Assembly: GCF_024298905.1 (NCBI RefSeq)
Contig: NZ_CP101154.1
Span: 3,312,932-3,376,931, forward strand
Source of the DNA: Natronomonas marina
GTDB lineage: Archaea > Halobacteriota > Halobacteria > Halobacteriales > Haloarculaceae
Direction of reading: 5' to 3'
DNA: 64,000 nt
In this document: piece after piece, positions 5,885 through 24,590 of the stretch
Layout of the letters: the number at the start of each line of letters is the position of its first letter
How positions within the stretch are numbered: position 1 is the stretch's first letter
Translations under genes and position numbers: made by a program
The notes under the pieces: model-generated
What the model saw: the letters and a program-made list of their open reading frames with translations, nothing else
Databases searched by the model: none
What the model was told of the DNA's origin: nothing

Positions 5885-6652
5885 ATGGACTCGAAAACCT
5901 CATCGAAAACCGTCCAATCGACGGTGAAATCCTTCGAGATCGTCGAATGTCTCCACGAACTCGACGGCGGTCGCGTCTCGGAGATAGCCGAGCGGCTCGG
6001 AGTCGCCAGAAGCACCGTTCACAGCCACCTCGCGACGATGAAGTCGCTCGGGTATCTGGTGCAGGAGGGCGACATCTACTATCTCAGCTCCCGGTTCATC
6101 GACCTGGGCCGCTACGTGCAGGGCCGAAAACGGGTGTACGAACTCGCTGGCCCCCAGGTCGAATCACTGGCCGAGCAAACGGGCGAACTCGTGCAGTTCG
6201 CCATCGCAGAGCACGGACGAGCCGTGTACATCCACCGCAGCGCGGGCGACCAGGCCGTTGCGACGGACGCCGACGACAGTCATCGGGTCTTCCTGCACGC
6301 GACGGCGGCCGGCAAGTGCCTCCTCTCGTTCATGCCCCGCGAGGACGTCGAGTCGATCATCGAGGAGACCGGGCTCCCGCAGCTCACCGGGTCGACCACC
6401 ACGGACCGCGCGTCGCTATTCGAGGAACTGTCCCGGATACGAGAACGCGGATTCGCCTTCAACGAAAGCGAGCGTATCAATGGCCTGCGAGCCGTCGGCG
6501 TCCCGGTATTCGACCAGGACCGGACGCTCCTCGGATCGATCAGTGTGGCTGGCCCGGAACATCGTATCCAGGGCGACTACTACAGGGAGGAGCTACCCAG
6601 ACTGCTGAACGGTGTCGCAAAGGAACTCGGGATGAACGTCACCTACGCCTGA
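5885..6652 (+). CDS. IclR-family transcriptional regulator
   Basis: 255 residues, normal length for the family. An N-terminal winged helix-turn-helix covers about residues 11-70 (VSEIAERLGVARSTVHSHL is the recognition part), followed by the IclR effector-binding domain (about 80-250) with the typical HATAAGKCLLSFMP block and a C-terminal GVPVFD...SISVAGPEHRI stretch. IclR proteins sense small organic acids or aromatics and control adjacent catabolic operons. Its position between the exporter/CoA-transferase pair and the dehydrogenase, amidohydrolase and hydantoinase genes makes it the obvious candidate controller of the island. Confidence 0.93.
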   Translation: MDSKTSSKTVQSTVKSFEIVECLHELDGGRVSEIAERLGVARSTVHSHLATMKSLGYLVQEGDIYYLSSRFIDLGRYVQGRKRVYELAGPQVESLAEQTGELVQFAIAEHGRAVYIHRSAGDQAVATDADDSHRVFLHATAAGKCLLSFMPREDVESIIEETGLPQLTGSTTTDRASLFEELSRIRERGFAFNESERINGLRAVGVPVFDQDRTLLGSISVAGPEHRIQGDYYREELPRLLNGVAKELGMNVTYA

Positions 6653-9153: not shown

Positions 9154-9480
9154 TTACTGCATCAGGACGTAAACGTCCTCGTCCTCGACGACGGTTTCGA
9201 CCTGCGGCAGCCGCTTTGCGAGGTCGCCACCGAACGGGTTCGTCCCGCCCTCGAGGTCGAACTCCCACCCGTGCCACGGACAGATCACCTTCTTGTTCTC
9301 GACGTCGAGTTTCCCCTCGACAACCGGACCGAGCTGGTGTGGACAGACGTTGCGAAAGGCGTACACCGTCTCGTCGTCCTCCGATCGGTACAGGAGTAGT
9401 TTCTTGTCGTCGACCGTCACGCGCTGTGGGCCCTCCGCGAGGTCTCGGACGGAGGTGGCGAGGTGTTTTTCCCGGGCCAT
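9154..9480 (-). CDS. Rieske-type [2Fe-2S] ferredoxin
   Basis: 108 residues making one complete Rieske domain. Ligands are Cys46 and His48 (CPH) and Cys67 and His70 (CPWH). No membrane segment or signal is seen, so it is a soluble cytoplasmic electron carrier of the kind used by oxygenases or as a subunit. It starts one base after the stop of the amidohydrolase gene, so the two are co-transcribed. The partner reductase and any terminal oxygenase are not in the window. Confidence 0.92.
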   Translation of the reverse strand: MAREKHLATSVRDLAEGPQRVTVDDKKLLLYRSEDDETVYAFRNVCPHQLGPVVEGKLDVENKKVICPWHGWEFDLEGGTNPFGGDLAKRLPQVETVVEDEDVYVLMQ

Positions 9481-10573: not shown

Positions 10574-10597
10574 ACGGTGACTCCGTTTGTAGCGACC

Positions 10598-10610
10598 GTA
10601 TTTATTTCTG
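10598..10610 (-). promoter_or_regulatory. TATA-like box for the amidohydrolase-Rieske pair
   Basis: On the minus strand CAGAAATAAATAC sits 25-37 bases before the ATG at 10573, as expected for a leaderless haloarchaeal promoter. Confidence 0.45.
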
Positions 10611-10771
10611 TGTATCGGTGTAAGCTGGGACCCCGACGCGGTGTGGTCGACTCCCCCGGTCACCGCCGAGGTGCCGCCTCCTCGAGCATACACGAGAGCG
10701 AAGCTGCAGTTCCCGCGACGCCAGTTCGAACCCGACCGGGCGGTCGGCAGAACCCGACCGACCTGCCACGT

Positions 10772-12136
10772 TCAGACCGGACGGCGGATGTACTCTCCGT
10801 GCCCCGCCTCGCCCACGACCTCGCCGTCCTCGTAGGCGACCTCGCCGCGGACGATCGTCTGGGTCGGCCAGCCCGTGACCGACATCCCCTCGTAGGGCGT
10901 GTAGTCACAGCCGCTCTGCAACAGTTCGGTCGTGACGGTCTTGGTTTCGTCGAGGTCGACGACCGCGAGGTCGGCGTCGCTCCCGACGCGTATCGTTCCC
11001 TTCTTGGGGAACACGTTCCAGGCTTTTGCCGTGTTCGTGCTCGTCACTTCGACGGCGCGCTCCAGCGAGATGCGGCCCTCGTTGACGCCCTCCGACAGGA
11101 TCAACGGCAGCATCGTGGTCGTTCCGGGGAACCCCCACAGCGAGTCCCAGATGTCGTCCCCGATCTTCTCGTCGGTGTCGTTCGGACAGTGGTCGGTCCC
11201 GATGCAGCTTATCGTCCCGTCGGCCACCCGTTCCCAGAGCACCTCCTGGTGGCGCTCGTCCCGCACCGGCGGGTTGACCTTCGCGCGGTCGTCGGCTTCG
11301 CTCGTCGTCAGCGCCAGGTAGTGCGGACACGTCTCGCCGGTCGTGCGATAGCCGGCCTCCCGGAGCGCCGCGATCTCGTTTGCCGTCTCCTTCGAGCTAA
11401 TGTGGACCGCATAGAAGCTGTCGTCGTAGTCGTGTTGGCGCGTAAGTGCGCTGCCGGCGACCATGCTCTGGGCCTCCGCTCGCCCCGGGAACGCATCGAC
11501 CAGTGACGCGTACTCGTCGCGGCCCGACGCCTTCTCGTGTTCTTTCAGTGGGGTCGTGATCTCGGCGTTCTCGGAGTGGTACGCGAGGGTCGTCGATTCC
11601 TCTCTGGCCGCCAATCGGGCGACGAAATCGTCGATACGGCCGTCGAATATGGAGCCGTCCTCCGGGCCCTCGCCGTCCTTCCGGACCGGGAACCACTTGA
11701 AGGTCGTGACGCCCCACTCCTCGATGGCGCGGTCGACCATCGAGACATCGGGTATCGAGGTGGGGTCGAGCGTCAGGAAGTAGTCGTGGTAGTAGCGGCC
11801 CTCGGCCTCCTCGAGGTACGTGGGCACGAACTCGTCCCAGAGTCCGCGCTGGAACGAGAGCATGACCCCGACAGTCGTGACGCCACCGACGAGGTCGGAG
11901 CGAGACTCGGCGATAGCGTCCGTCGTGAACTCCCTGTAGATGCCGTGGTGGGTGTGCGGATCGATCGCCCCCGGGAGGACGTACTTTCCAGTCGCGTCGA
12001 CTTCGGTGTCACCGCCGAGGGTTCCGGGAGCGGCTACGTTCGAAACGACGCCGTCGTCGGCCGCGATGTCGGCCTCGAACCGTCCCTGTTCCGGGGTGAC
12101 GACGGTCCCGTTACTGACGACGAGGTCGTGACTCAT
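10772..12136 (-). CDS. Dihydropyrimidinase/hydantoinase-family cyclic amidohydrolase (copy 1)
   Basis: 454 residues from the ATG at 12136 (MSHDLVVSNG). These enzymes open cyclic amides such as hydantoins, dihydropyrimidines, allantoin or cyclic imides at a two-metal site. Visible ligands: His61 and His63 (DPHTHHG), Lys153 as candidate carboxylated lysine (FKWFPVRK), His187 (AYHSEN), His245 (YAVHIS) and Asp315 (CIGTDHC). Its ATG overlaps the stop of the isochorismatase gene by four bases (ATGA), so translation is coupled. The 3' part (10919-11111) is about 94% identical in DNA to the second copy at 24587-25987 while the 5' part is much more diverged. True substrate unknown. Confidence 0.9.
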   Translation of the reverse strand: MSHDLVVSNGTVVTPEQGRFEADIAADDGVVSNVAAPGTLGGDTEVDATGKYVLPGAIDPHTHHGIYREFTTDAIAESRSDLVGGVTTVGVMLSFQRGLWDEFVPTYLEEAEGRYYHDYFLTLDPTSIPDVSMVDRAIEEWGVTTFKWFPVRKDGEGPEDGSIFDGRIDDFVARLAAREESTTLAYHSENAEITTPLKEHEKASGRDEYASLVDAFPGRAEAQSMVAGSALTRQHDYDDSFYAVHISSKETANEIAALREAGYRTTGETCPHYLALTTSEADDRAKVNPPVRDERHQEVLWERVADGTISCIGTDHCPNDTDEKIGDDIWDSLWGFPGTTTMLPLILSEGVNEGRISLERAVEVTSTNTAKAWNVFPKKGTIRVGSDADLAVVDLDETKTVTTELLQSGCDYTPYEGMSVTGWPTQTIVRGEVAYEDGEVVGEAGHGEYIRRPV

Positions 12137-12798
12137 GCGACCTCCTCGAGGTACGTTTCGGCCTCGCTTCGATCGACGACCTCGGCGTACTTCATCCAGA
12201 GGTCCAGCAGCGCGATCTTGTGAGAGGCCTCGATGCGGTCGAAGACGCACTCGGTCGGAACGACGACGTCGAAGCCGTACTGTTTTCCGTCGATCGCCGT
12301 CGCCCGAACACAGCCGCTCGTCGAGTTACCCACGACGATGATCGTGTCGATCCCGTCCCGGACGAGCCGCGACACCAGATCGGTCCCGAAGAACGCACTC
12401 GCGTAGGACTTGTCGAGTACGAGGTCGTCCTCCTCGGGTGCGATGGGATCGACGATACGGAGGTCGTCGTGGTCCGGATCGTCGTAACTCTCCGGGATGA
12501 CTCGCGTGTAGGTGATCGGCACGTCGCTCTCGCGGGCACTGTCGAGGAACGGGGCGATGTCGTCGAGAGCGTCGTGGGCGACCGAACCCATCGAGGAGCT
12601 GTTGAACTCCTGGATCGACTCGAGTATCGGTACGTCGTCACCGACGATGAATCGCTGCATGTCGATGACGAACACCATCGGGTTGTCGCCGAGTCCCCGC
12701 GACTCCCAGACCTTCGCGCCTTCCTCGTCGTAGCCGCCCTTCGTGATGACCTGTTGGTCGCGCTCGGTGAGCAGATCCTCCCAGATTCGTGTAGTCAT
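12133..12798 (-). CDS. Isochorismatase-like cysteine amidohydrolase
   Basis: 221 residues, one cysteine-hydrolase domain with the full triad: Asp46 (VIDMQ), Lys130 (LDKSYASAF) and Cys163 (GNSTSGCVRATA). This is the pattern of N-carbamoylsarcosine amidase, ureidoacrylate amidohydrolase (RutB) and maleamate amidase (NicF), which cut linear amides or carbamoyl groups. Being coupled (ATGA overlap) to a ring-opening hydantoinase, it most likely hydrolyses the linear amide or ureide product. An N-terminal extension of about 40 residues before the core is common in carbamoylsarcosine-amidase relatives. Confidence 0.9.
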   Translation of the reverse strand: MTTRIWEDLLTERDQQVITKGGYDEEGAKVWESRGLGDNPMVFVIDMQRFIVGDDVPILESIQEFNSSSMGSVAHDALDDIAPFLDSARESDVPITYTRVIPESYDDPDHDDLRIVDPIAPEEDDLVLDKSYASAFFGTDLVSRLVRDGIDTIIVVGNSTSGCVRATAIDGKQYGFDVVVPTECVFDRIEASHKIALLDLWMKYAEVVDRSEAETYLEEVA

Positions 12799-12881: not shown

Positions 12882-13886
12882 CTATTCGGGAGCGAGTGCC
12901 TCGTACGTTTCCTCGACGAGCGCCGGATCACCACCGGCGGGCCGAATAATCGGCATGTTCACCCCGGCATCGCGGAGCGTCTGGAGTTTGTCGGCCGCCT
13001 CCCGAGGCGTGCCGACGACCGCGACGATGTCGAGATACTCCTCGGAGATGGCGGTCGCAGCGGCGTCGAGACTCGAGGCGTTCCTGGCGGCCTCGACGTC
13101 GTCTTCGAACCCCGATTCCACCGCCACCCGATCGTAGTAGCCCGGAATGGACCGGAAGTAACGAGCGACGTGCTTTGCGGCAACCTGGCGGGCGTGCGCC
13201 GGATCCTCGGAGACCGCCCCGAGCACGTACATCGCCACGTCGATATCACCGATATCCCGACCGGCACGTTCGGCTCCCTCCGCGAGCCACGACTGCGCTT
13301 CGTCGAGTTTCTCGCGGGGATAGAGGTTCGGAAGCCAGCCGTCCGCGTACTCTCCCGTCAGACGGACGTTACCCGGACCGAGAGCCGCATTGTAGATCGG
13401 TATCTCGCCGCGCGTCGGCTCGAAGGACTCCCAGAAGCTGGCTCGACCGGGCGAGTAGAACTCCCCGTCGAACTCCTCGCCGGACCCCGCGAGGTACTTT
13501 CGTATCAGCGTGATGTATTCGACCATGCGTGGGAGCGGCCTGTCGAACTCCATTCCGTGGAACTCCTCGACGACGCCGGGATGGGCCACGCCGAGGCCGA
13601 GGATGGCGCGGCCGTCGGAATGCTCGTCCAGCGTCGCTATGCCCTGCGCGATCGCCGCGGGGCTGCGGGAGAACACGTTGACGATACCCGTCGCCAGTCG
13701 GATCCGGTCCGTGACGGTCGCCCACCGTTCCAGTTTGCCGAACGCGGTCTTTCCCTGTCCCTCTGCCGCCCAGACGCTGTGGTAGCCCAACTCCTCGACG
13801 CGCTGGACCAGGTTCATGTCGTCGTCGAGCGCGATGGAAACGCCCAAACGCTCCTCGCCGTCCCCGGTGTCGGATTCGTCGACCAT
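12882..13886 (-). CDS. LLM-class flavin/F420-dependent oxidoreductase
   Basis: 334 residues from the ATG at 13886, one base after the stop of the SnoaL-like gene; a GTG at 13895 overlapping that gene is an alternative start. The luciferase-like fold is shown by ELGYHSVWAAEG near residue 30, LATGIVNVFSRSP near 64-76 and RAILGLGVAHPG near 94-105. Many haloarchaeal members use F420, others FMN. Beside an isochorismatase it recalls the RutA/RutB pair (flavin pyrimidine oxygenase plus ureidoacrylate amidase), but the overall similarity looks closer to F420-dependent enzymes. Confidence 0.87.
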   Translation of the reverse strand: MVDESDTGDGEERLGVSIALDDDMNLVQRVEELGYHSVWAAEGQGKTAFGKLERWATVTDRIRLATGIVNVFSRSPAAIAQGIATLDEHSDGRAILGLGVAHPGVVEEFHGMEFDRPLPRMVEYITLIRKYLAGSGEEFDGEFYSPGRASFWESFEPTRGEIPIYNAALGPGNVRLTGEYADGWLPNLYPREKLDEAQSWLAEGAERAGRDIGDIDVAMYVLGAVSEDPAHARQVAAKHVARYFRSIPGYYDRVAVESGFEDDVEAARNASSLDAAATAISEEYLDIVAVVGTPREAADKLQTLRDAGVNMPIIRPAGGDPALVEETYEALAPE

Positions 13887-13887
13887 C

Positions 13888-14274
13888 TCAGGCACCCGGT
13901 TCGACGATTCCCTCGGAGGCGAGGTCGTTCCAGATGTCGAGACGCGTTATCTCGCCATCGCTGACCGAGTAGACGTCGATGTAGCGGACGTCGGAGAACG
14001 CATCACCGTCGTTATTTACCCCGTAAAGACGCCCGATACTTGCTACCTCCGACCCCGACTGGATCCATCGGTCGAACTCCTTGTCGACCCACTCGAGCCG
14101 CTGACCGACCGCCTCGACGAACTCTTCGGCCGCAGTGTCGCCGACGAACGTCCGCCCCGGCCGTGTTATTACCGCCCGGTCCGCGAACAGTTCGCCGACG
14201 GTCGCCTGCGTTTCGGGGTCGCTCATCCGCTCGAAGAACTCCTCGACGACGGCTCTCGGATCTGACTCCGTCAT
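13888..14274 (-). CDS. SnoaL/NTF2-like protein (copy 1)
   Basis: 128 residues forming a single NTF2-like cone fold (SnoaL-like family: polyketide cyclases, limonene-epoxide hydrolase relatives, ring-hydroxylase beta subunits). N-terminal helix VVEEFFERM, then AVITRPG and the strand-rich C-terminal half VRYIDVYSVSDGEITRLDIWNDL. It is a paralog of the protein at 23947-24321. It heads the SnoaL-LLM pair, suggesting a substrate-binding or isomerase/hydrolase role on the same compound. Reaction unknown. Confidence 0.85.
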   Translation of the reverse strand: MTESDPRAVVEEFFERMSDPETQATVGELFADRAVITRPGRTFVGDTAAEEFVEAVGQRLEWVDKEFDRWIQSGSEVASIGRLYGVNNDGDAFSDVRYIDVYSVSDGEITRLDIWNDLASEGIVEPGA

Positions 14275-14505: not shown

Positions 14506-14517
14506 GTAATTTTATGC
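14506..14517 (+). promoter_or_regulatory. TATA-like box for the flavoprotein gene
   Basis: GTAATTTTATGC lies 24-35 bases before the ATG at 14541, matching a leaderless promoter and supporting 14541 rather than the TTATG at 14514 as the start. Confidence 0.5.
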
Positions 14518-14540
14518 GAGTCGGTTCCATAGCCGACCGC

Positions 14541-15986
14541 ATGAGTGCCGATACACGAGTAGACCAGCGGACACTGGAGGACGAGACGACGGAGGTCGTT
14601 CCTGCCTCGGAGGTATCCTGGGACGTAGAGACCGACGTACTGGTCGCCGGGGCCGGCGGTTGTGGGCTCGTCGCGACGCTGGCAGCGTCCGAGAACCCGG
14701 ACCTCCGGGTGACGCTGCTGGAAAAGACCGGCGAGCCCGGCGGCAACACCGAACTTTCGACCGGCATGATCCCAGCGGCCGGAACACGGTTCCAGCGAGC
14801 GGCCGGGATAGCGGAAGCGCCGAACGACATGGCGCAGGACATTCTCGAGAAGAACGACTACGAGGCCGACGAGGATATCGTCCAGCACCTCTGTGAGGAG
14901 AGCCGCGCGCTCGTCCACTGGCTGGTCGACGAGTGGGACGTCTCCCTCCACTTCGTGGACGACTTCCGCTACCCGAAACAGTCCGAGTTCCGCATGCACG
15001 CACCGCCGGGACGAAAAGGTGCCAACCTGGTCGGAGAACTCGTCGACCGCGTCGATGCACAACCGAACGCGGAACTGCTCACCAACACGCCGATCAGACA
15101 GCTCGTGGCCGAGGACGGAGCGGTGACTGGCGTCATCGCCGGCAAGCGTCACAGAGAGGCGATCAAGGCTCGAAAGGTCGTCCTGGCGACCAACGGCTTC
15201 GCCGGGAACAAGCGGATGATCGACGAGTGGTGTCCCGAAATCGAGGACGCGCTGTACTTCGGCGCGGACGGGAACACGGGTGACGGGATCAGGATGGGGG
15301 CCGAACTCGGCGGTGACCTCGCCTGCATGGACGCTTACCAGGGGTTCGCCAGCGTAATCCAGGGGGTCGGTATCCACTCGACGTACGCCGCGATCATGAA
15401 GGGCGGAATAATGATCAACGCCGACGGCGAGCGGTTCGGTGACGAATCACGCGGCTACTCGGCGTTCGCCGTCGACGTGCTCAGACAGCCGAACGGCGTG
15501 GCGTACAAACTGTTCGATCAGGAGATCTTCGACGAACTGGCGGGGCAGTTCGACGACTTCGACGAGGCAGTTGAACTGGACGGCTACGAGCGAGGTGAGA
15601 GCGTCGAGGCGCTCGCGGACCGCTTCGAGTTCGACGCGGAGACGGCGAGGGAGACCCTGGAGACATACAACGAGGCGGCAGCCAGCGGCGGCCCCGACAC
15701 GACGGGACGGACGGACGGCCTCAAGCCGCTGTCACCGCCACTCTACGGAGCGGAGGTCACCGGCGCGCTCTTTCACACGCAGGGCGGCCTGGTCGTGGAC
15801 GAACACGGACAGGTACTTCGAGAGGACGACAGTGTGGTCGAGAACCTCTACGCCGGGGGTGGAACGGCCGTGGGGATCAGCGGCCACGGCGCCGGTGGCT
15901 ATCTCAGCGGGAACGGTCTGACGACCGCCCTCGGGTTCGGGAAGTTAGCGGGCGACCACGCCCGCGAAGCGTTGTCGAACGAGTAA
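14541..15986 (+). CDS. FAD-dependent oxidoreductase, fumarate reductase/ketosteroid dehydrogenase type
   Basis: 481 residues from the ATG at 14541. N-terminal FAD-binding Rossmann motif GAGGCGLVATLAA follows strand DVLVAG, with LLEKTGEPGGNTELSTG as the adenine/ribose region. The C-terminal end has the family block NLYAGGGTAVGISGHGAGGYLSGNG. Soluble members include flavocytochrome fumarate reductase, urocanate reductase and 3-ketosteroid dehydrogenases; they reduce or desaturate a C-C bond next to a carbonyl or carboxylate. No heme or signal peptide is seen, so it is cytoplasmic. In this island it could reduce the double bond of an unsaturated acid or dehydrogenate a ring. It is convergent with the lyase gene. 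Confidence 0.9.
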   Translation: MSADTRVDQRTLEDETTEVVPASEVSWDVETDVLVAGAGGCGLVATLAASENPDLRVTLLEKTGEPGGNTELSTGMIPAAGTRFQRAAGIAEAPNDMAQDILEKNDYEADEDIVQHLCEESRALVHWLVDEWDVSLHFVDDFRYPKQSEFRMHAPPGRKGANLVGELVDRVDAQPNAELLTNTPIRQLVAEDGAVTGVIAGKRHREAIKARKVVLATNGFAGNKRMIDEWCPEIEDALYFGADGNTGDGIRMGAELGGDLACMDAYQGFASVIQGVGIHSTYAAIMKGGIMINADGERFGDESRGYSAFAVDVLRQPNGVAYKLFDQEIFDELAGQFDDFDEAVELDGYERGESVEALADRFEFDAETARETLETYNEAAASGGPDTTGRTDGLKPLSPPLYGAEVTGALFHTQGGLVVDEHGQVLREDDSVVENLYAGGGTAVGISGHGAGGYLSGNGLTTALGFGKLAGDHAREALSNE

Positions 15987-16002: not shown

Positions 16003-16938
16003 CTACTGGTCGCCCGGTGCTTCGCCGAGTGAATCGTCGTACTTTTCCTCCTCTTCGGCGGGCAGGTACCGCTCCTCCCACTCGACGACCTCCGGGAACC
16101 CGGCGAACTGGTGGAACGAACCGATCGGGAGCTCCTCGAACTCGGCGTACAGTTCCTCGACCGCGCTGGAGCCCTCCGTCAGAACCCGTTCGACCCACTG
16201 GTGGAGACCGAGGATCGTCGCCCGGGTCGAGACACCGGGATAGATGACGACGTCGAACCCGTAGTCCTCCAGCGTCTCGGCGTCGAGCATGGGCGAGATG
16301 CCGGTACAGTTGTACAGCAACGGGGCGTCGACCCGTTCGCCGATTTCCCGGACCTCCGCTTCGTCGACCGGTCCTTCGACGAACGCGACGTCGGCACCGG
16401 CCTCACAGTAGGCATTGACACGCTCGATAGCCTCGTCGAGGGACCCGTCGGTCGCGCCGCGCGCGTCGGTTCGACCGATGACGAGCACCGACTCGTCGCG
16501 TTCGTCGCGGACGTCCGCAGCGGCGGCGAACTTCCCGGCGGCCTCCTCGGTCGGAACTAGCTGGCGCCCCTTGACGTGGCCACACCGCTTGGGAAAGCTT
16601 TGGTCCTCTATCTGTACGGCACCGACACCCGCTTTGATGAACTCCCGCATCGTGCGGATGACGTTCGTCGCGTTGCCGAACCCGTTGTCGGCGTCCGCGA
16701 TGACGGGGACATCGACGCGTTCCTGTATCGCGGCCGCGTTGTCCACCATCTCCGGCATCGTGATGAACCCGGCGTCGGGATAGCCCGTCCGGGACAGGGA
16801 CGTCCCGTAGCCGGTCATGTAGATCGCCTCGAAGTCCAGGCGGTCCTCGACGGCGGCCGTGAGTGGGTCGTGGGCACCGGGACAGACCAGTATCTCCTCG
16901 CGCTCTACCAGTTCTCGCAGGTTCGTTGAATCAGCCAT
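16003..16938 (-). CDS. Isocitrate lyase/PEP mutase-family C-C lyase (methylisocitrate or dialkylmalate lyase-like)
   Basis: 311 residues from the ATG at 16938, the length of 2-methylisocitrate lyase (PrpB) and 2,3-dimethylmalate lyase. Mg-binding aspartates are in ADADNGFGN (82, 84), Glu111-Asp112 follow in QIEDQ, and the lyase signature KRCGH is at 117-121, with the catalytic cysteine at 119 that distinguishes lyases from PEP mutases. It would split a 2-alkylmalate or methylisocitrate into pyruvate or oxaloacetate plus another acid. It is followed upstream by the LeuDC-type hydratase genes on the same strand (81 bases), which would supply such a hydroxy acid. Confidence 0.9.
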   Translation of the reverse strand: MADSTNLRELVEREEILVCPGAHDPLTAAVEDRLDFEAIYMTGYGTSLSRTGYPDAGFITMPEMVDNAAAIQERVDVPVIADADNGFGNATNVIRTMREFIKAGVGAVQIEDQSFPKRCGHVKGRQLVPTEEAAGKFAAAADVRDERDESVLVIGRTDARGATDGSLDEAIERVNAYCEAGADVAFVEGPVDEAEVREIGERVDAPLLYNCTGISPMLDAETLEDYGFDVVIYPGVSTRATILGLHQWVERVLTEGSSAVEELYAEFEELPIGSFHQFAGFPEVVEWEERYLPAEEEEKYDDSLGEAPGDQ

Positions 16939-16960
16939 CGCCTCGTAGGTGGCAAACGGC

Positions 16961-16975
16961 GATGATAAATATGTC
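16961..16975 (-). promoter_or_regulatory. TATA-like box for the lyase gene
   Basis: GACATATTTATCATC on the minus strand lies 23-37 bases before the ATG at 16938, so the lyase can be transcribed separately from the hydratase genes. Confidence 0.45.
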
Positions 16976-17019
16976 GCCACTGGACGCCCCGCTCGGTACC
17001 ACCTCGGGTGGGGTGGAAC

Positions 17020-17517
17020 TCAGTCGGTTTTGAGCCCCTCCGGATGTCTCCGGTAGTGTTCGCGCAGCCCACCGACCTCGAACACTTCCTGGATCTCCTC
17101 GGGGATGGACTCACAGGAGCCCTCTTCGCCGGTGTCGCAGTTCCTGACCCGACCCTCGTCGAGGTCGACCTCTATCTCGTCGCCGTCAGCGACGAAGTCG
17201 GTGACGCCAGGGCAGGAGACGACGGGCAGTCCCCAGGCGATGCTGTTCCGGTAGAAGATGCGGGAGAACGACTCGGCGACGACGACACCGACACCTGCGG
17301 CCTGCAGTGCAGCGGCAGCGCTCTCCCGGCTGCTGCCGGAGCCGAAGTGGCTCCCGGCGACGACGATGTCACCGGGTTCGAACTCGTCGGTGAACTCCGG
17401 ACGGATCGGCTCGAAGACGTGTTCGGCCATCACGTCGAACGACTCCCCGAAGTAGTCGCTCGGCGTGATGAGGTCAGTGTTGATCTCGTCACCGAAGACG
17501 AAGGCACGGCCTCGCAT
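17020..17517 (-). CDS. LeuD-type small subunit of an aconitase-family hydratase
   Basis: 165 residues. The start is the ATG at 17517, chosen because a GGAGG ribosome-binding site (complement of 17525-17529) sits seven bases upstream; the GTG at 17523 overlaps the large-subunit stop. The swivel domain is complete: FGDEINTDLI at the N-terminus, GSHFGSGSSRE near 57-67 with the substrate-specificity loop, and FYRNSIAWGLP. Relatives are isopropylmalate isomerase, homoaconitase, maleate hydratase and dimethylmaleate hydratase. It pairs with the large-subunit gene directly upstream. Confidence 0.92.
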   Translation of the reverse strand: MRGRAFVFGDEINTDLITPSDYFGESFDVMAEHVFEPIRPEFTDEFEPGDIVVAGSHFGSGSSRESAAAALQAAGVGVVVAESFSRIFYRNSIAWGLPVVSCPGVTDFVADGDEIEVDLDEGRVRNCDTGEEGSCESIPEEIQEVFEVGGLREHYRRHPEGLKTD

Positions 17518-17519
17518 GC

Positions 17520-18776
17520 TCACACCTCCCTCGGGTCGGTGATACGACCCGTGATGGCCGAGGCCGCGGCGGTTCGGGGACTCGAGAGGTAGATGTCGGA
17601 GGAGTCACTCCCCATGCGGCCCTGGAAGTTCCGGTTCTGTGCAGCCAGACACACCTCGTCGTCACCGAGAACGCCCATCCCCATGCCGATACAGGCACCG
17701 CACGTCGAGTTCGTCACCACGGCCCCGGCCTCGTTGAATACGCGAACGAGTCCCGCCTCGTCGGCGCGCGAGTAGATCTCTCGAGACGCGGGCGTGATGA
17801 TGAACCGAGTCCCGTCGGCGACCTCGTTGCCTTCGAGTACCTCTGCAGCAGCGAGGAGGTCCTCGTACTTGCCGTTCGTACAGGAGCCGACGAACACCTG
17901 ATCGAGTTCCGTCCCCTCGACGTCGTCGACATCGACGACGTTGGCGACCTTATGGGGGGTTGCGACCTTCGGCTGGAGGTCACTCGCGTCGAGACGATAC
18001 GTCTCCAGGTACTCGGCATCAGGATCCGCGTGCCGGGGTGTGTACGGCTCGTCGGTGCGCGAGTCGACGTACTCGGTCACTTTCTCGTCGATCGGTGTGA
18101 ACCCGAACTTCGCGCCCAGTTCGATGGACATGTTCGAGAGGACGAACCGGTCGTCGAGCGACAGCCGCTCGATGGCCGGGCCGGTGTACTCGATGGCCTT
18201 GTAGCGTGCCACGTCGGTCCCGTACGTGCCGGCGATGTGGAGGATGAGGTCTTTCGCGTCGACGGCGTCGCCGAACTCCCCGTCCACATCGAACCTGATC
18301 GTCTCGGGAACCCGGAACCAGGTCTGTCCGGTCGCGTACACGTACGCCATATCAGTGTGGCCGATACCGGTCCCGGCGGCGCCGAACGCACCGTGACTCG
18401 TAGTGTGTGAGTCCGTCCCCACGAGGAGTTCACCCGGGCGTACATGGCCGTTCTCGACGAGCACCTCGTGACAGATCCCCGTCCCGACCTCGTAGAAGTT
18501 CTCGATGCCCTGCTCCTCGACGAACTCCCGGATGCGGGATTTCTGGTTTGCGTCCTCGATGGTGTGCGACGGGGCGACGTGGTCCATCGGACAGACGATC
18601 CGGGAGGGGTCCCACACCTCCTCGACGCCCATCTCCTCGAGGTGGCCGATGACCCCCTCGGTCCCGAGGTCGTGAGACATCGCCATATCCACATCGCAGA
18701 CGAGGTGATCGCCCGGTTCGGCAGTTTCCACCCCGGCCGCGTCGGCCAGAATTTTTTCCGCTATTGTCGATCCCAT
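17520..18776 (-). CDS. LeuC-type large subunit of an aconitase-family hydratase
   Basis: 418 residues from the ATG at 18776, the size of stand-alone LeuC. The three [4Fe-4S] ligands are visible: Cys299 (VGSCTNG), Cys359 and Cys362 (NSTCGACIGMGMG). VGTDSHTTSHGAFGAAGTGIG near 119-139 is the substrate-binding part. No other leucine gene is nearby; the partner is instead a C-C lyase, and a TRAP transporter is divergent. That context fits hydration of maleate, alkylmaleate or aconitate analogues better than leucine synthesis, though the reaction is inferred. Confidence 0.92.
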   Translation of the reverse strand: MGSTIAEKILADAAGVETAEPGDHLVCDVDMAMSHDLGTEGVIGHLEEMGVEEVWDPSRIVCPMDHVAPSHTIEDANQKSRIREFVEEQGIENFYEVGTGICHEVLVENGHVRPGELLVGTDSHTTSHGAFGAAGTGIGHTDMAYVYATGQTWFRVPETIRFDVDGEFGDAVDAKDLILHIAGTYGTDVARYKAIEYTGPAIERLSLDDRFVLSNMSIELGAKFGFTPIDEKVTEYVDSRTDEPYTPRHADPDAEYLETYRLDASDLQPKVATPHKVANVVDVDDVEGTELDQVFVGSCTNGKYEDLLAAAEVLEGNEVADGTRFIITPASREIYSRADEAGLVRVFNEAGAVVTNSTCGACIGMGMGVLGDDEVCLAAQNRNFQGRMGSDSSDIYLSSPRTAAASAITGRITDPREV

Positions 18777-18797
18777 AGCGGATAGGGCACGTCGACT

Positions 18798-18810
18798 CAC
18801 ATAAAGATAG
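18798..18810 (-). promoter_or_regulatory. TATA-like box for the LeuCD-type hydratase operon
   Basis: CTATCTTTATGTG on the minus strand is 22-34 bases before the ATG at 18776. It lies in the 176-base divergent region shared with the TRAP operon. Confidence 0.45.
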
Positions 18811-18909
18811 TTACTGTGAGGGACGTCGGATCGTCCGTTCGACAAGAATGACCCATTTTCGTCAACAAATTGATTTCCCGGAGATCATCGAGCCGTATCC
18901 CGTCAATAG

Positions 18910-18919: not shown

Positions 18920-18952
18920 TCCCCCTCAATTGTCTGCACATAGCATTTGACC

Positions 18953-20248
18953 ATGCCTAAGGATACTACAAACCGGCGTGTAATGTTGAAGCGACTCGGT
19001 ACCGGACTGACCACGGGCGCGTTGATCGGTATGGCGGGGTGTACCGGCAACGGCAATGGAAACGGGACCGGGAACGGCAACGGCAATGGAAACGGCAACG
19101 GCAACGGGAACGGCAACGGCAATGGCAACGGCAACGGGGGTCAATCCATCGAGTGGCGCCACGGAACCGGGTTCTCGGAGGCCGGGAACAACAAGGACGC
19201 CACCGACCCATCGCATCTCTGGGAGCTGAGCCGCCGGCTCGAGGAGTCGACCGACGGGCGAATCAGTATGCAGGTGATCGGTCAGGGCGAGATCTGTGGG
19301 TTCGCGGACTGTGGGGAGAAACTCCAGGCTGGCGTCGTAAACTCGGCGTCCTCGTCGCCGGCTAACTCCCACAAGCAGTGGCCGCCGCTGCACTTCTGGG
19401 TGATGCCGTACCTGTTCCCGGGGGACAACATCGCATCGATAAACGCGACCATGTTCTCCGAACAGCTCTGGGAGGAGTACTGGGTCCCGTTCGCACAGCA
19501 GTACGGCGTCCTGCCGTTTCTGCCCGAGGAGGGGCAGTTCCGCTGTGTATTTATCGGGACCGACGCAGCATCGGGCGTGGATGGGCGCATCCGTCTTCCG
19601 GAACAGATCGAGGACATGGACATCCGAAGAACGTTCAGTCGGATGTCCGCCCAGGCCATCAGTTCGTGGGGTGCCAACCCGGTCGAAATCGCCTTCGCCG
19701 ACACGCTGCAGGGAATGCAGACCGGTGTCGTCGACGGGATGGAAATATGGCCGACGGCGCACGCCGCGTTCGGATTCCCCGAGGCGACCGCCCAGGCGGT
19801 CATCAACAACTGGGCGATGGGTATCGAGCCGAACTGGATTCGAGTGGACTTCCTCCAGCAGTTTTCGGAGGAAGACCTCCAGATGCTGGGCGAGGAAACC
19901 AAGGCGCTCTCCGAGGAGTGGGTGCGGGGAACCGACGAGTTCAACGAGCAGCGCGCCGGCGTCTCGGACCCGCCGCCGTCCGGCTCGAAGTACGCCGAGA
20001 ACGACGTCACGGTCAACATACTCGACGACGACGAGCTACAGGCCTGGCAGGGCGAACTCGATCTCAAGGACAACCCCGACCAGTACTCGCAGGTGTACGA
20101 GGAGACGGAGCGACTCGACGCCATCGACGATGGACAGGCGTTCATCAACATGGTCTACGAGAAGGCCCGCTCCAGCAGCACCCCGACGACGACGGACGAC
20201 TTCACGTACGACGTCTGGTGGCACGACTACCTCGACGAAATCCTGTAA
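18953..20248 (+). CDS. dctP: TRAP transporter substrate-binding lipoprotein (DctP family)
   Basis: 431 residues from the ATG at 18953 (a TTG two codons upstream is less likely). The N-terminus has a twin-arginine motif (NRRVMLK) and a lipobox ending at Cys30 (GMAGC), so it is exported by Tat and lipid-anchored outside the cell. Residues 31-63 are an almost pure Gly-Asn repeat acting as a flexible tether. The DctP domain follows, with the central arginine region (FRCVFIGTD, then MDIRRTFSRM) and GMQTGVVDGMEIWP that bind the substrate carboxylate in this family. The ligand is likely an organic acid. The membrane subunits follow at 20317 and 20857. Confidence 0.93.
   Translation: MPKDTTNRRVMLKRLGTGLTTGALIGMAGCTGNGNGNGTGNGNGNGNGNGNGNGNGNGNGNGGQSIEWRHGTGFSEAGNNKDATDPSHLWELSRRLEESTDGRISMQVIGQGEICGFADCGEKLQAGVVNSASSSPANSHKQWPPLHFWVMPYLFPGDNIASINATMFSEQLWEEYWVPFAQQYGVLPFLPEEGQFRCVFIGTDAASGVDGRIRLPEQIEDMDIRRTFSRMSAQAISSWGANPVEIAFADTLQGMQTGVVDGMEIWPTAHAAFGFPEATAQAVINNWAMGIEPNWIRVDFLQQFSEEDLQMLGEETKALSEEWVRGTDEFNEQRAGVSDPPPSGSKYAENDVTVNILDDDELQAWQGELDLKDNPDQYSQVYEETERLDAIDDGQAFINMVYEKARSSSTPTTTDDFTYDVWWHDYLDEIL
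19041..19140 (+). repeat. Gly-Asn-encoding hexanucleotide repeat
   Basis: Imperfect tandem units of GGCAAC/GGAAAC/GGCAAT/GGGAAC, six bases each and about 16 copies, encode the Gly-Asn linker of the binding protein. Such runs expand and contract by slippage, so linker length is likely variable between strains. The unit stays in frame because its length is a multiple of three. Confidence 0.8.
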
Positions 20249-20316
20249 GCGTTTTCAACGTTCGTCGTACAGATTATAAGTTATAAGTGAGAGTACAACA
20301 TGAATCTGAGTGAATC

Positions 20317-20856
20317 ATGGAACTGAACGTGTCTCGCATCGCACGCGACGTCGAACGCAATCTCGAGGGGTACGTAAGCACGGTGCTGATGCTATCGTAC
20401 ACGGCGATCATCCTGTACACGGTAGTCCTTCGGACACTGGGCATCCAGATACAGCAGCTGTACATCCAGGAAGTCGTCATCGGGGGTTTCATCTGGCTCG
20501 GGTGGCTGTCGGTGTCGTACGTCATTCGGACCGACGGTCACCTGCGTTTCACCTACTTCAGCAAGGACTACTCGGCACGGAAAACGTACGTCGTCTACGT
20601 CGTCGAGTGGATCTGCTGGCTGGTGTTTGCAGGGATCATCTTCTGGTTCGCTCTCGACGTGCTTCAGACGCGTATCGATTCCGGCGGGAGGATTACAGGG
20701 ACGGACGTCCCGTCGTATCTGCTGTATCTCTCCGTGCCGGTCGGTTTCGGGATGATCCTACTCCGCGTTCTACAGCAGGCCGTGATCGTCACGAACCAGT
20801 TCCGAAGGGGCAAAGAAATAGGAATCGCGGAAAACCCCGAGGCTCAGGACGTATAG
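20317..20856 (+). CDS. dctQ: TRAP transporter small membrane subunit (DctQ)
   Basis: 179 residues with four hydrophobic helices (about 23-42, 48-66, 92-112 and 132-152), the DctQ topology. The GGFIWLGWLSVSYVIRTDGHLRFTYF region between helices 2 and 3 resembles the family signature. It lies 68 bases after the binding-protein gene and its stop TAG is directly followed by the ATG of the large subunit. Confidence 0.9.
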   Translation: MELNVSRIARDVERNLEGYVSTVLMLSYTAIILYTVVLRTLGIQIQQLYIQEVVIGGFIWLGWLSVSYVIRTDGHLRFTYFSKDYSARKTYVVYVVEWICWLVFAGIIFWFALDVLQTRIDSGGRITGTDVPSYLLYLSVPVGFGMILLRVLQQAVIVTNQFRRGKEIGIAENPEAQDV

Positions 20857-22146
20857 ATGCTCGAGTTAACCATCGGGCAGGTGATGATCCTGCTGACGAT
20901 ACTGAGTGTCATCCTTTTCGTGTCGGGCGTCTCCATCGCACTGGTGTTCGGCATCTGGGCCGTCGGTTTCACTTACTTCTCCCCGATCTTCCCGTTCGTC
21001 AATATGTCGCTGGTCGCGTTCAACGAACTGAACACGTTCCCGTTCGTGGCGATTCCGATCTTCATCGTCGTCGGCTCGTTGATCAACAAGGTCGGGATGG
21101 CCACTCGAATCATCGATTTCACTCGCTCTATAGGCGGGTGGCTCCCCGGAAGCACCGGGAACACCTGTATCTACACGGCGGGCGTATTCTCCGCCATTAC
21201 GGGATCGAACGCCGCGACGACCGCCTCCGTCGGTGAAGCGCTGTACGACGATCTCGTCGACGAGGGATACGACGAGGACTTCGCAGCGGCGACGATCGCC
21301 TCGGGCGGCACGCTCGGGATCATCATCCCACCGAGCGTCCTGTTCATCATCTACGGGATCACGTTCGGCGTGTCCGTCTCACAGCTGTTCATCGTCGGGA
21401 CGATCCCGGGGATCATGATGATGATCAGCCTGTCGGCGACCGCGAGTATCATCGCGTACCGGCGGGGCTACGGCACGTCCGAGTTTTCGTTCAGTGTCCG
21501 AAACATCCTGCAGAGTACGTGGGGCGCCAGGAACGCGTTCATCACGATCGGGTTGTTGATCGGCGGAATATTCCTCGGCGTGTTCACGCCGTCCGAGTCC
21601 GCGGCGGTGGCGTTCACGTACATCCTGGGGGTCGGGCTCTTCGGTAGCTCGATTCAGAACCTCCGTGAACTCGTCGAGCCGTTCCTCACGTCGATCCAGG
21701 TCATGGGGATGATCATCCCGATCTTCGTGTCCTCGGTGATGATCCAGCAGGGGCTCTCGTTCTTCAACCTCCAGACGGTCGTCGCCGATCTGATCATGTC
21801 GCTCGGCCACCCTGCCCTGATATTCGTCGGTATGATCGTCGTGATGCTGATCAGCGGCTCCATACTCGACTCCGTCCCGAACATGATCCTCACTGCACCG
21901 CTGCTCGCGCCGGCGGCGTTTTCGCTGGGTCTGGATCCGCTGACCTGGGCGGTCGTGTTCATGATCAGCGACGCGATCGGCTTCATCACCCCGCCCTACG
22001 GACTGAACCTCTACATTATCAGCGGGATGGTCGATCTGGACTACATCGACGTCGCCTACGCGGCGCTTCCGTACCTGGTCGCGCTGTGTATCGTCTGGAT
22101 CCTCTTCTTCGCCTTCCCGGAGTTGAACGTCCTCTCGCCCGTGTGA
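20857..22146 (+). CDS. dctM: TRAP transporter large membrane subunit (DctM)
   Basis: 429 residues with about 12 hydrophobic segments, the ion-coupled translocation subunit of the TRAP system. Typical blocks are FPFVAIPIFIVVGSL, FSAITGSNAATTASVG, GGTLGIIIPPSVLFIIYG and the C-terminal DAIGFITPPYGLNLY. Its start directly abuts the DctQ stop, so translation is coupled. Together with DctP and DctQ it makes a complete sodium-driven importer for a carboxylate, matched to a halophile's Na+ gradient. Confidence 0.93.
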   Translation: MLELTIGQVMILLTILSVILFVSGVSIALVFGIWAVGFTYFSPIFPFVNMSLVAFNELNTFPFVAIPIFIVVGSLINKVGMATRIIDFTRSIGGWLPGSTGNTCIYTAGVFSAITGSNAATTASVGEALYDDLVDEGYDEDFAAATIASGGTLGIIIPPSVLFIIYGITFGVSVSQLFIVGTIPGIMMMISLSATASIIAYRRGYGTSEFSFSVRNILQSTWGARNAFITIGLLIGGIFLGVFTPSESAAVAFTYILGVGLFGSSIQNLRELVEPFLTSIQVMGMIIPIFVSSVMIQQGLSFFNLQTVVADLIMSLGHPALIFVGMIVVMLISGSILDSVPNMILTAPLLAPAAFSLGLDPLTWAVVFMISDAIGFITPPYGLNLYIISGMVDLDYIDVAYAALPYLVALCIVWILFFAFPELNVLSPV

Positions 22147-22476: not shown

Positions 22477-23844
22477 ATGGCTAGTTCAGCGGAAAGAGAG
22501 TGGATGGCACAGGCGATCGAGTTTCTCTCCTCGCCAGTCCCGGAACCGGTCCTCGACGAGGGCGTTCTCGTGCTTGCGGACGTACTATCGGCAGCAGTCG
22601 CCGGCGCGGATACCGCAGCAAACGAGCGGGTTGCGACCGGGATGCAGGTTGCGGCCGGGAACGCGTCGATTGTCGGAACCGGACGGACGGCGTCACCTGG
22701 GAACGCTGCGCTGGTGAACGGGACGACGGCCATCTCGGCCGAGATCGAGGAGGGCCACAACAGAGGCGGACACGTCGGTGCGGGCATCGTCGCCGGTGGC
22801 TTCGCGCTCGGTGAGGCTGCGGACGCCGACGGGGAGTCACTGCTCGAAGGGATCGTGAAAGCCTACGAACTGTGTACCCGCATCGAACACGCCATCTGGT
22901 CGATGAAAGACCGTCTCGACGACGTGACGCCCTGGCATCTCCGCGACCCCCACGGCACATGGACGACGGTCGGGCCGGCGGTCGCGGGGGCGATCGCGAT
23001 GGGATGTGACGACGAGACAGTCGTCGAGGCGTTCCGACTGGGTGCGAACCTGGCGGTGCTCTCGATGCACGACCCCTATCGGGAAGGCTCGCCAGCCAGG
23101 AACGTCACGTCGGGGCTCTCGACGCAGGTCGGGGTGAACGCTGCGCTTCTCGCCGACGCCGGACTCGCCGGCTCACGGGCCGCGATTCGGGAGGTGTACG
23201 ACCCGCTCCGCGAGATGGACGAAACGTCGTTCGACCGGTCGTTCGGAGAGTTGGGCGAGGCCTGGTCGATCACCGAGAACTACTACAAATTCACGCCGTC
23301 CTGCTGGTACACGCACGCCCCGCTGGCGGCACTCGATACCGTCGTGGACGACGTTCGAGTCGACGAGGTCGAGTCGATCGACGTCTTCACCTACAACAGG
23401 GCCAGTGCCCTCGACCACACCGACTGTGCGACACCGACGAGCGGGAAGTTCTCGACGCCGTACGTTCTCGCCCGAAAGCTCATCGGTGACGGTGCGGACC
23501 TCTGGTTGGACGACTTCGACGAGTCGTCACTCTCCGACCCCGCAACGCGAGCGCTCGCCGACCGCGTCGGCCTTCATCGGGACCCCGAGTACGAAGACCG
23601 GTTCCCGGACCACCGGAGCGCACGGGTCGAGGTGACACACACCGACGGGACCACGCTCGAGGCGGAGTGCGTCGACGCGCCCGGGGATCACCGCAACTTC
23701 CCGGGGAACGACGCGCTCGAGGGGAAGTTCGAGCGCCTACTCGAGACCCGTCTCGACGCCGGAGCGACGGACGCCCTCGAAGTACTCCTCGACGTTCGTC
23801 ACCGGAGTGTACGGGACGTCGGGGCGGCGCTACGAACCGCGTAG
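22477..23844 (+). CDS. MmgE/PrpD-family protein
   Basis: 455 residues covering the whole family fold: an all-alpha domain (about 1-260 plus the C-terminal end) and a smaller alpha/beta domain. The family includes 2-methylcitrate dehydratase, cis-aconitate decarboxylase and iminodisuccinate epimerase. Recognisable blocks are NGTTAISAEIEEGHNRGGHVG near 88-108 and the FKFTPSCWYTHAPL-like YYKFTPSCW at about 269-277. With a methylisocitrate-lyase-like enzyme and an aconitase-type hydratase in the same island, a methylcitrate-like dehydration is possible, but no citrate synthase-type gene (PrpC) is present, so an epimerase or other lyase role is as likely. Confidence 0.88.
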   Translation: MASSAEREWMAQAIEFLSSPVPEPVLDEGVLVLADVLSAAVAGADTAANERVATGMQVAAGNASIVGTGRTASPGNAALVNGTTAISAEIEEGHNRGGHVGAGIVAGGFALGEAADADGESLLEGIVKAYELCTRIEHAIWSMKDRLDDVTPWHLRDPHGTWTTVGPAVAGAIAMGCDDETVVEAFRLGANLAVLSMHDPYREGSPARNVTSGLSTQVGVNAALLADAGLAGSRAAIREVYDPLREMDETSFDRSFGELGEAWSITENYYKFTPSCWYTHAPLAALDTVVDDVRVDEVESIDVFTYNRASALDHTDCATPTSGKFSTPYVLARKLIGDGADLWLDDFDESSLSDPATRALADRVGLHRDPEYEDRFPDHRSARVEVTHTDGTTLEAECVDAPGDHRNFPGNDALEGKFERLLETRLDAGATDALEVLLDVRHRSVRDVGAALRTA

Positions 23845-24446: not shown

Positions 24447-24590
24447 ATGACTCGACAACTGCCGCCGAACCGCTGTGCCGACACGAGCGACGATGTCCGC
24501 CGAACGGTGCGGTGGCGTATCGATAGCGACCGATCCGTCGCGGGGTTGGGTGGGGTTTCTCCCGTTCGAACGTACGGGGGCGAGCGATGA
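24447..24590 (+). CDS. Possible 47-residue small ORF coupled to hydantoinase 2
   Basis: ATG at 24447, stop TGA at 24588-24590 overlapping the hydantoinase ATG by four bases (ATGA). The peptide MTRQLPPNRCADTSDD... is basic and Arg-rich with one cysteine, unlike typical acidic haloarchaeal proteins, so it may be a leader or coupling peptide rather than a folded protein. The support is positional: promoter spacing and the ATGA overlap. It may also be chance. Confidence 0.35.
   Translation: MTRQLPPNRCADTSDDVRRTVRWRIDSDRSVAGLGGVSPVRTYGGER

Follow-up and report, generated by a model that had tools for sequence, protein, structure and literature searches.

A conserved gene pair for an isochorismatase-like amidase and a hydantoinase in Natronomonas marina and its possible role in cyclic imide degradation

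In a stretch of 64,000 nucleotides of the haloarchaeon Natronomonas marina (NCBI RefSeq assembly GCF_024298905.1, contig NZ_CP101154.1, positions 3,312,932 to 3,376,931; hereafter the window), we analysed the gene pair formed by an isochorismatase-like cysteine amidase (AMID) and a cyclic amidohydrolase of the hydantoinase superfamily (HYD1), together with the genes around it. The AMID/HYD1 pair is confirmed as genuine and beyond chance, and the two families co-diversify in archaea and bacteria. We consider it probable, with some reserve, that AMID and HYD1 and/or a second hydantoinase of the window (HYD2) carry out successive catabolic steps on an alkyl- or carboxyalkyl-substituted cyclic imide, or on a lactam oxidised to an imide.

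Results

The amidase and hydantoinase genes are coupled and keep their catalytic residues

The stop codon of AMID and the start codon of HYD1 overlap as ATGA, reading ...cgcATGAgtcac... on the minus strand, as stated in a first-pass annotation of this DNA. The HYD1 frame in the list of open reading frames begins at a GTG at 12250, and the ATG at 12136 was taken as its start. An in-frame ATGA or GTGA overlap is found at 32 of the 37 places where AMID lies directly upstream of a HYD1-like hydantoinase (HYD) in a set of 80 loci, which includes several near-identical Haloferax genomes. Because this overlap recurs, and because all 40 genomes with an AMID orthologue, among 391 genomes of the class, also have a close HYD, the pairing goes beyond chance.

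The completeness of both active sites, also claimed in that annotation, is borne out, with one amendment. In AMID, Asp46, Lys130 and Cys163 are conserved without exception in 22 aligned rows and in a wider set of 27, the window being counted in both; they are the counterparts of D29, K117 and C150, given as catalytic in NicF in PMC5806882. HYD1 retains all six metal ligands of the two-metal site, H60, H62, K146, H186, H244 and D314 (numbering from Ser2), and the same set HHKHHD (HxH, Lys, H, H, D) is present in HYD2 and, in all, in 77 of 78 hydantoinase rows, the lone exception being truncated by the end of its contig. This count covers all hydantoinase rows after realignment and replaces a table restricted to rows with an HxH-like motif, which was partly circular, with 12 of 76 hydantoinase matches dropped (11 lacking the motif and one with a low score). 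The amendment concerns a loop tyrosine, which is an arginine in HYD1 (see below).

Conservation, gene neighbourhood and co-diversification

AMID orthologues were found in 40 of the 391 genomes (E ≤ 2.1e-74, with the next best genome at 2.4e-30), and a HYD1-like protein (E 1e-110) in 43, including those 40. A flavoprotein gene, FAD2 (E 1e-130), occurs in 38 genomes, every one of them with AMID, and a luciferase-like oxidoreductase gene, LLM (E 1e-90), in 38, of which 37 have AMID; all four genes are found together in 37 genomes. The limits for HYD, FAD2 and LLM were fixed before counting, weaker matches being unlisted and only the best first-look candidates scored, and the weakest listed per-genome best matches lie well inside them (7.9e-160, 2.3e-179 and 8.1e-122, respectively). 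The Fisher p-values for tracking AMID across the 391 genomes (HYD 2e-51, FAD2 8e-51, LLM 4e-47) overstate independence, because the genes are linked and the genomes related. In the three genomes with a close HYD and no AMID orthologue (G239, G368 and G372), no amidase, hydratase or lyase of our reference set is found around that HYD.

Among named relatives, those matching AMID best are haloarchaea, e.g. Haloferax, Halorubrum, Natrinema and Halorarius. Neighbourhoods were compared in the best 80 of 271 confirmed stretches in named genomes, 31 haloarchaeal and 49 others, with genes labelled by BLAST against a chosen reference set, to which other gene types are invisible; some contigs are short, loci L064 and L094 overlap, and L076/L077 and L080/L091 each come from one genome. 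HYD is present in all 31 haloarchaeal loci and adjacent to AMID in 30 (in L091 the sole HYD match is on the other strand), in the company of a CoA transferase (28 loci), LLM (28), LeuC together with LeuD (26), FAD2 (26) and a SnoaL-like protein (26). A lyase is also recurrent, resembling HMG-CoA lyase in 25 loci, PrpB in three and CitE in three, and hydratase and lyase occur together in 26. In the non-haloarchaeal set HYD adjoins AMID in 18 loci, 13 of which have LeuC or AcnA, 14 a lyase and 12 both; among the others, without adjacent HYD, a hydratase is never found, a lyase in six loci, and both in none. Most Thermoplasmata loci, which are partly annotated, hold a CoA transferase, PrpB, LeuC, LeuD, AMID and HYD, and PrpB, AcnA, HYD and AMID are found in Shinella, Falsochrobactrum, Alcaligenes, Yanghanlia, an Alcaligenaceae strain and a metagenome-assembled genome of Rhodospirillaceae. 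A Variovorax metagenome-assembled genome (L117) presents MmgE, FAD2, MmgE, CobW, HYD, AMID and PrpB.

HYD and AMID co-diversify. The identity matrices of 36 adjacent pairs correlate with r 0.81 (0 of 5000 permutations), with r 0.82 when two duplicate rows are removed (34 pairs, 0 of 5000) and with r 0.64 in the haloarchaea alone (21 pairs, 3 of 5000). Three paralogous HYD types, with the motifs HHxIY, HYGL and HLGRR, coexist in G350, G306, Halomarina and Halorarius. For all 22 rows of these types, an AMID and its nearest relative at other loci share the type of their HYD partner; two of the 22 rows are the same gene, present twice.

Some further genes were noted around such pairs. AtuA-family genes adjoin LLM, SnoaL and extra HYD/AMID pairs in L057, L064 and L094, with a DUF4387 gene as well in L057 and L094. 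In L055 (19060-21340), the module of a Shinella plasmid is followed by genes for a HemL-like aminotransferase and hemC; of 22 loci searched, hemC is found elsewhere only in that of Shinella yambaruensis (L102).

AMID falls on the maleamate and N-carbamoylsarcosine amidase side of its family

AMID fails the models for RutB (TIGR03614, 35.3 bits against a cut-off of 377.95) and for BiuH (38 bits against 370). By sequence, its closest solved relatives are 26st (an N-carbamoylsarcosine amidohydrolase), the maleamate amidases Ami (4l07, 4l08) and NicF (3ot4, 3uao), and then the N-carbamoylsarcosine amidase CSHase (1nba). In a tree of 45 rows, a split with support of 97/95 places AMID and its relatives together with Ami/NicF/CSHase, apart from RutB, EntB, PncA and two further members of the family in the N. 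marina genome. The NicF, Ami, CSHase and 26st rows are fragments and, because the outgroup branches are long, the tree is read as giving the side of the family on which AMID falls, not exact sisterhood. With the same care over long branches, the approximately unbiased (AU) test rejects a clade of AMID with Escherichia coli RutB (p 3.9e-6), and AMID does not group with the nicotinamidase PncA. The amidase phylogeny called for in the first-pass annotation thus reveals no firm clustering with true isochorismatases or nicotinamidases, the outcome named there as fatal to its reading.

The predicted structure of AMID (mean predicted local distance difference test score, pLDDT, 91.8) matches best Ami (Z 25.3), Ami with maleate (25.2), NicF (24.7), CSHase (24.6) and the uncharacterised 3irv (24.4), values within 1 Z being ties that leave these four proteins unseparated; lower matches are the isochorismatases VibB (23.1) and PhzD (22.9), followed by RutB and EntB (both 21.9). 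Judged by sequence and model, AMID belongs within the isochorismatase-like family on the side of the maleamate amidases (Ami, NicF) and of N-carbamoylsarcosine amidase. It shares with Ami of Pseudomonas putida S16 and NicF of Bordetella bronchiseptica the Asp/Lys/Cys triad, the active-site motif TSGCVRA[TS] and the nearest fold, but only about 30% identity.

HYD1 and its paralogue HYD2

Of 20 stretches taken from other genomes, 18 contain a hydantoinase that is closer to HYD2 than to HYD1. The two paralogues differ in the loop after the metal-bridging Lys, which reads KWFPVRK in HYD1, KWYMNYK in HYD2 and KVFMAYK in the D-hydantoinase 1yny. The Tyr five residues past the Lys is presumably Tyr155 in D-hydantoinase numbering, with the role we take it to have in those enzymes, and HYD1, with Arg instead, is the sole row without it among the 37 of its subfamily (motif HHxIY). 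Over about 180 bases (codons ~341-401) the DNA of the two paralogues is 90-98% identical, against 52-87% in other 60-base windows, which looks like the product expected of gene conversion. G372, G239 and G368 have hydantoinases of yet another subfamily (motif PHxHxGLFRP), which keeps the loop Tyr and has no amidase module around it. Next to HYD2 lies a gene for a DUF3891 protein (26187-26957), relatives of which adjoin IclR and HYD/AMID genes in Halomarina (L057) and Halorarius (L064).

Other genes of the window cluster

The genes of the cluster are listed in Table 1.

Table 1. Genes of the N. marina cluster, in window coordinates
Feature	Position	Strand	Description
AMID	12133..12798	-	221 aa; isochorismatase-like cysteine amidase; PF00857, D46/K130/C163, tree, fold matches 4l07, 4l08, 3uao, 1nba
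HYD1	10772..12136	-	454 aa from ATG at 12136; cyclic amidohydrolase, hydantoinase superfamily
HYD2	24587..25987	+	HYD1 paralogue, 62% identical; loop Tyr kept
LLM	12882..13895	-	Luciferase-like oxidoreductase; best NCBIfam match TIGR04024, below cut-off; best PDB match methylene-tetrahydromethanopterin (H4MPT) reductase
SnoaL-like small protein	13888..14274	-	PF12680; overlaps LLM gene; weak match to PDB 9mua 'Tautomerase' (E 5e-8), only solved relative found
FAD2	14514..15986	+	Flavoprotein of fumarate reductase / urocanate reductase / tricarballylate dehydrogenase type
PrpB-like lyase	16003..16980	-	Isocitrate lyase (ICL)/phosphoenolpyruvate (PEP)-mutase superfamily; KRCGH motif
LeuD-like small subunit	17020..17523	-	TIGR02087 (LeuD/DmdB) 173.9 bits, cut-off 108.95; passes
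LeuC-like large subunit	17520..18845	-	Aconitase-family hydratase; motifs GSCTN, CGAC
TRAP transporter	18947..22146	+	DctP 18947-20248; DctQ 20317-20856; DctM 20857-22146
MmgE/PrpD-family protein	22477..23844	+	Recurrent neighbour; family in 18/31 haloarchaeal loci
IclR-family regulator	5885..6652	+	Family in 10/31 haloarchaeal loci

The SnoaL-like protein is perhaps a tautomerase or isomerase. The PrpB-like lyase stays below the cut-off of the methylisocitrate lyase model (TIGR02317, 227.1 against 354.4 bits), and its KRCGH loop, which we take to be the catalytic loop of ICL/PEP-mutase superfamily lyases, is also present in the PrpB-like copies of Shinella and Hydrogenophaga. A PrpB 59% identical to it adjoins another isochorismatase-family amidase in a genome of the same genus (L148, G288), with no hydantoinase in the 12 kb fetched. 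In its 3.99 Mb the N. marina genome has only three aconitase-family genes (four matches, two of them within one open frame) and two PEP-mutase-family genes over the cut-off.

The TRAP transporter, whose small membrane protein DctQ was assigned by position and not by family search, probably takes up an anionic substrate; in other haloarchaea, LIV-type ABC transporters are found near AMID. It is possible, though uncertain, that the IclR-family protein regulates the cluster. The GC content is 0.58 to 0.71 per 2 kb over the first 30 kb of the window, with no clear island edge. Beyond HYD1 lie genes for an Amidohydro_2 protein (9482-10693; best PDB matches 8sm7, 8sm8, 8sm9 and 8sm6, then 6m1w) and a Rieske ferredoxin (9154-9480); among the best 80 loci the former is matched in three (L067, L115 and L120) and the latter in none.

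Discussion

A proposed pathway for a cyclic imide

We infer the imide ring, the substrates and the order of the steps from the enzymes present, and the scheme was chosen because it is the simplest pathway using every recurrent enzyme. In it, a binuclear-metal hydantoinase would open the CO-NH-CO ring to a half-amide (CONH2 plus COO-), from which AMID, through a Cys/Lys/Asp acyl-enzyme mechanism, would release ammonia, leaving a vicinal, cis-unsaturated dicarboxylate of the maleate type. The aconitase-family hydratase LeuCD would then hydrate the diacid to a malate-type hydroxyacid, which the PrpB-like lyase would cleave to a 2-oxoacid and a carboxylic acid; in relatives, this last step may be carried out by a CoA transferase with an HMG-CoA-lyase- or CitE-like lyase. 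The F420-type LLM, the SnoaL-like protein and FAD2 could serve earlier steps, or change the oxidation level of ring or side chain. The succession of ring opening and amide cleavage put forward in the first-pass annotation is therefore kept, in agreement with the ATGA coupling, the co-diversification of HYD and AMID and the proximity of AMID to maleamate and carbamoylsarcosine amidases, its order and substrates being those that we propose here.

A diacid product is indicated by the recurrent neighbours, namely an aconitase-family hydratase and a C-C lyase; vicinal acids of this kind are known substrates of such hydratases and of lyases of the PrpB, HMG-CoA-lyase and CitE types. The lyase itself varies, being PrpB in the window, HMG-CoA-lyase-like with a CoA transferase in Haloferax and CitE/RipC-like with a CoA transferase in Halomarina, and a few loci (L086, L087) have more than one type. 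The lyase step seems exchangeable, the N. marina genome having PrpB and no close HMG-CoA-lyase relative (best 29% identity). Such neighbours make pyrimidine or hydantoin chemistry less likely, and cyclic imides, which were also on the substrate list of the first-pass annotation, would be better guesses than pyrimidines. An imide also fits better than a ureide because the annotated surroundings of the pair in Haloferax gibbonsii (25 features, hut operon aside) and in Halomarina (27 features) include no enzyme for amine removal: in the imide route the nitrogen leaves as amide, whereas a ureide would leave an amine.

Several observations weigh against this scheme. The best fold matches of AMID exceed those to true isochorismatases by no more than about 1.5 to 2 Z, and the clade does not by itself settle between imide and ureide, because CSHase, an N-carbamoyl hydrolase, shares it with the maleamate amidases. 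On the hydantoinase side, the loop Tyr is kept at +5 or +6 after the Lys in 65 of 78 rows and replaced by Arg in HYD1, which without it may not be the working imidase; HYD2, or both, could be. Neither protein passes the D-hydantoinase model TIGR02033 (HYD1 273.8 and HYD2 250.2 bits, cut-off 393.25), and both are superfamily relatives that we do not file as D-hydantoinases. The specificity of PrpB and LeuCD cannot be read from their sequences. AMID has no adjacent HYD in 31 of the 49 non-haloarchaeal loci, and neither hydratase nor lyase is found in four of the 31 haloarchaeal ones, where some contigs are short. The reference set used for the locus labels held no aminotransferase or deaminase, and genes of this kind do occur in bacteria: an L-serine ammonia-lyase near the pair in Variovorax PBL-E5 and, at the loci of Shinella and Falsochrobactrum, an aminotransferase resembling HemL.

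Alternative explanations

These amine-handling genes would suit a ureide route, in which HYD would convert a hydantoin or dihydropyrimidine by ring opening into an N-carbamoyl amino acid and AMID would decarbamoylate it in the manner of CSHase; the free amino acid would undergo further metabolism, and LeuCD and the lyase would deal with the later carbon skeleton. Among solved structures, D-hydantoinases and dihydropyrimidinases are closest to HYD1, CSHase (1nba) and 26st are among the closest to AMID, and a nucleoside hydrolase gene lies 4 to 6 kb from the pair in Hydrogenophaga. Nevertheless, among 107 sequences the aminotransferase is strong only in the Shinella and Falsochrobactrum loci and weak (27-33% identity) in L122, L123, L124 and L127, the ammonia-lyase match is confined to its own locus, and the H. 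gibbonsii and Halomarina pairs have no annotated amine-handling gene beyond the hut operon, so that we regard a ureide as unlikely, though a serious competitor. A pyridine route of the enamidase or 2,5-dihydroxypyridine kind, with F420-dependent reduction of a pyridone, ring opening by HYD and action of AMID on a maleamate- or glutaramate-like amide, is distinctly less probable, and would overlap with the imide scheme if the ring first becomes an imide. It draws on the resemblance of LLM to F420-dependent proteins, on a gene like those of FAD aromatic hydroxylases in the Shinella and Falsochrobactrum modules, on the place of NicF in nicotinate degradation (PMC5806882) and on Aspergillus nidulans, where reduction of the ring precedes the action of a cyclic imidase and an amidase (PMC9304392). 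Against it, LLM is missing from 46 and SnoaL from all 49 of the 49 non-haloarchaeal loci, and neither a molybdenum hydroxylase nor a ring-cleaving dioxygenase is annotated around the H. gibbonsii and Halomarina pairs. Variovorax PBL-E5, by contrast, does have a catechol meta-cleavage operon 5 to 12 kb from the pair on the other strand.

The genes could also be a loose gathering of unrelated catabolic functions on an accessory island, in line with their patchy occurrence (40 of 391 genomes), their presence in 10 plasmid records at 60-80% identity and the Rieske ferredoxin and Amidohydro_2 genes of the window, which in the reference search are not regular neighbours elsewhere. This we find very improbable, since FAD2, LLM and HYD track AMID across the 391 genomes and the core of the cluster is found again in both archaea and bacteria. 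Least credible of all is an oxidative pyrimidine degradation of the RutA/RutB kind, which the first-pass annotation had been reminded of by the LLM gene beside that of the amidase. The likeness to the uracil pathway, an LLM-type flavin protein next to an isochorismatase-fold amidase, does not extend further, as both window proteins fail the comparison: AMID by its RutB score and the AU test described above, with its caveat on long branches, and LLM by an identity to E. coli RutA of 23% over 234 residues. The top NCBIfam matches of LLM are F420-dependent families, none of them over its cut-off among the best 25 of 30 (TIGR04024, 208.8 bits against 345.4), and its closest solved relatives are methylene-H4MPT reductases; on this evidence LLM is more likely to be an F420-dependent hydride-transferring enzyme than an oxygenase. 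E. coli RutC, RutD, RutE and part of RutF have no match at E 1e-6 within positions 1-30000 of the window, and among the loci there is only a weak RutC match (L118). The Rut analogy was accordingly rejected and, of the combined oxidative and hydrolytic pyrimidine-like chemistry once suggested, the oxidative part falls because LLM resembles F420-dependent reductases and not RutA.

Relation to known systems and significance

The imide scheme has parallels in known pathways. In the imidase/half-amidase route of Blastobacter, a hydantoinase-like imidase opens the imide and an amidase hydrolyses the half-amide. In anaerobic nicotinate fermentation, a LeuCD-type dimethylmaleate hydratase is followed by dimethylmalate lyase of the PrpB family, and the window likewise has a LeuCD-type hydratase, whose LeuD passes the LeuD/DmdB model, and then a PrpB-family lyase; unlike in the window, an enamidase opens the ring in that pathway and no isochorismatase-like amidase is known to take part. 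The nicotinate pathway of A. nidulans follows the same two-step logic, from cyclic imide to half-amide and release of ammonia, with HxnM and HxnN belonging to families other than HYD and AMID (HxnM of the PuuE/deacetylase type, HxnN similar to fatty acid amide hydrolase) and 2-hydroxyglutarate as product (PMC9304392). The amidohydrolase described for the 4-hydroxypyridine pathway is of another type than HYD. A paper on riboflavin catabolism names maleamate in two reference titles alone, and one on assigning functions in Haloferax names hydantoinase just in a reference.

Among the matches listed from open-licence PMC papers, there is no cluster comparable to ours for citrazinate/isonicotinate (aconitamide) and enamidase-type routes, nor, on the subjects of imides, hydantoinase with isochorismatase, maleamate amidase and tetrapyrrole-imide degradation, any description of this enzyme combination. 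The enzyme families are individually known, and their combination suggests an undescribed pathway. A more speculative extension, which we hold to be rather improbable, is a cross-domain pathway (imidase, maleamate-type amidase, aconitase-family hydratase and C-C lyase) that mineralises substituted maleimides, its natural substrates being imides from the oxidation of chlorophyll, haem and bilins. Methyl-ethyl-maleimide, methyl-vinyl-maleimide and hematinic acid would then be the substrates, and the three parallel HYD/AMID pairs of some haloarchaea would serve different side chains; the uptake systems fit a carboxylated substrate such as hematinic acid, and do no more than fit.

If the imide scheme is true, it would add a nitrogen-releasing ring-opening pathway in gene clusters of haloarchaea, Thermoplasmata and Pseudomonadota. 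It would also give functions to genes annotated merely as 'isochorismatase family' or 'amidohydrolase family' protein, and what becomes of cyclic imides in salty and other habitats could then be tested with a brief list of substrates.

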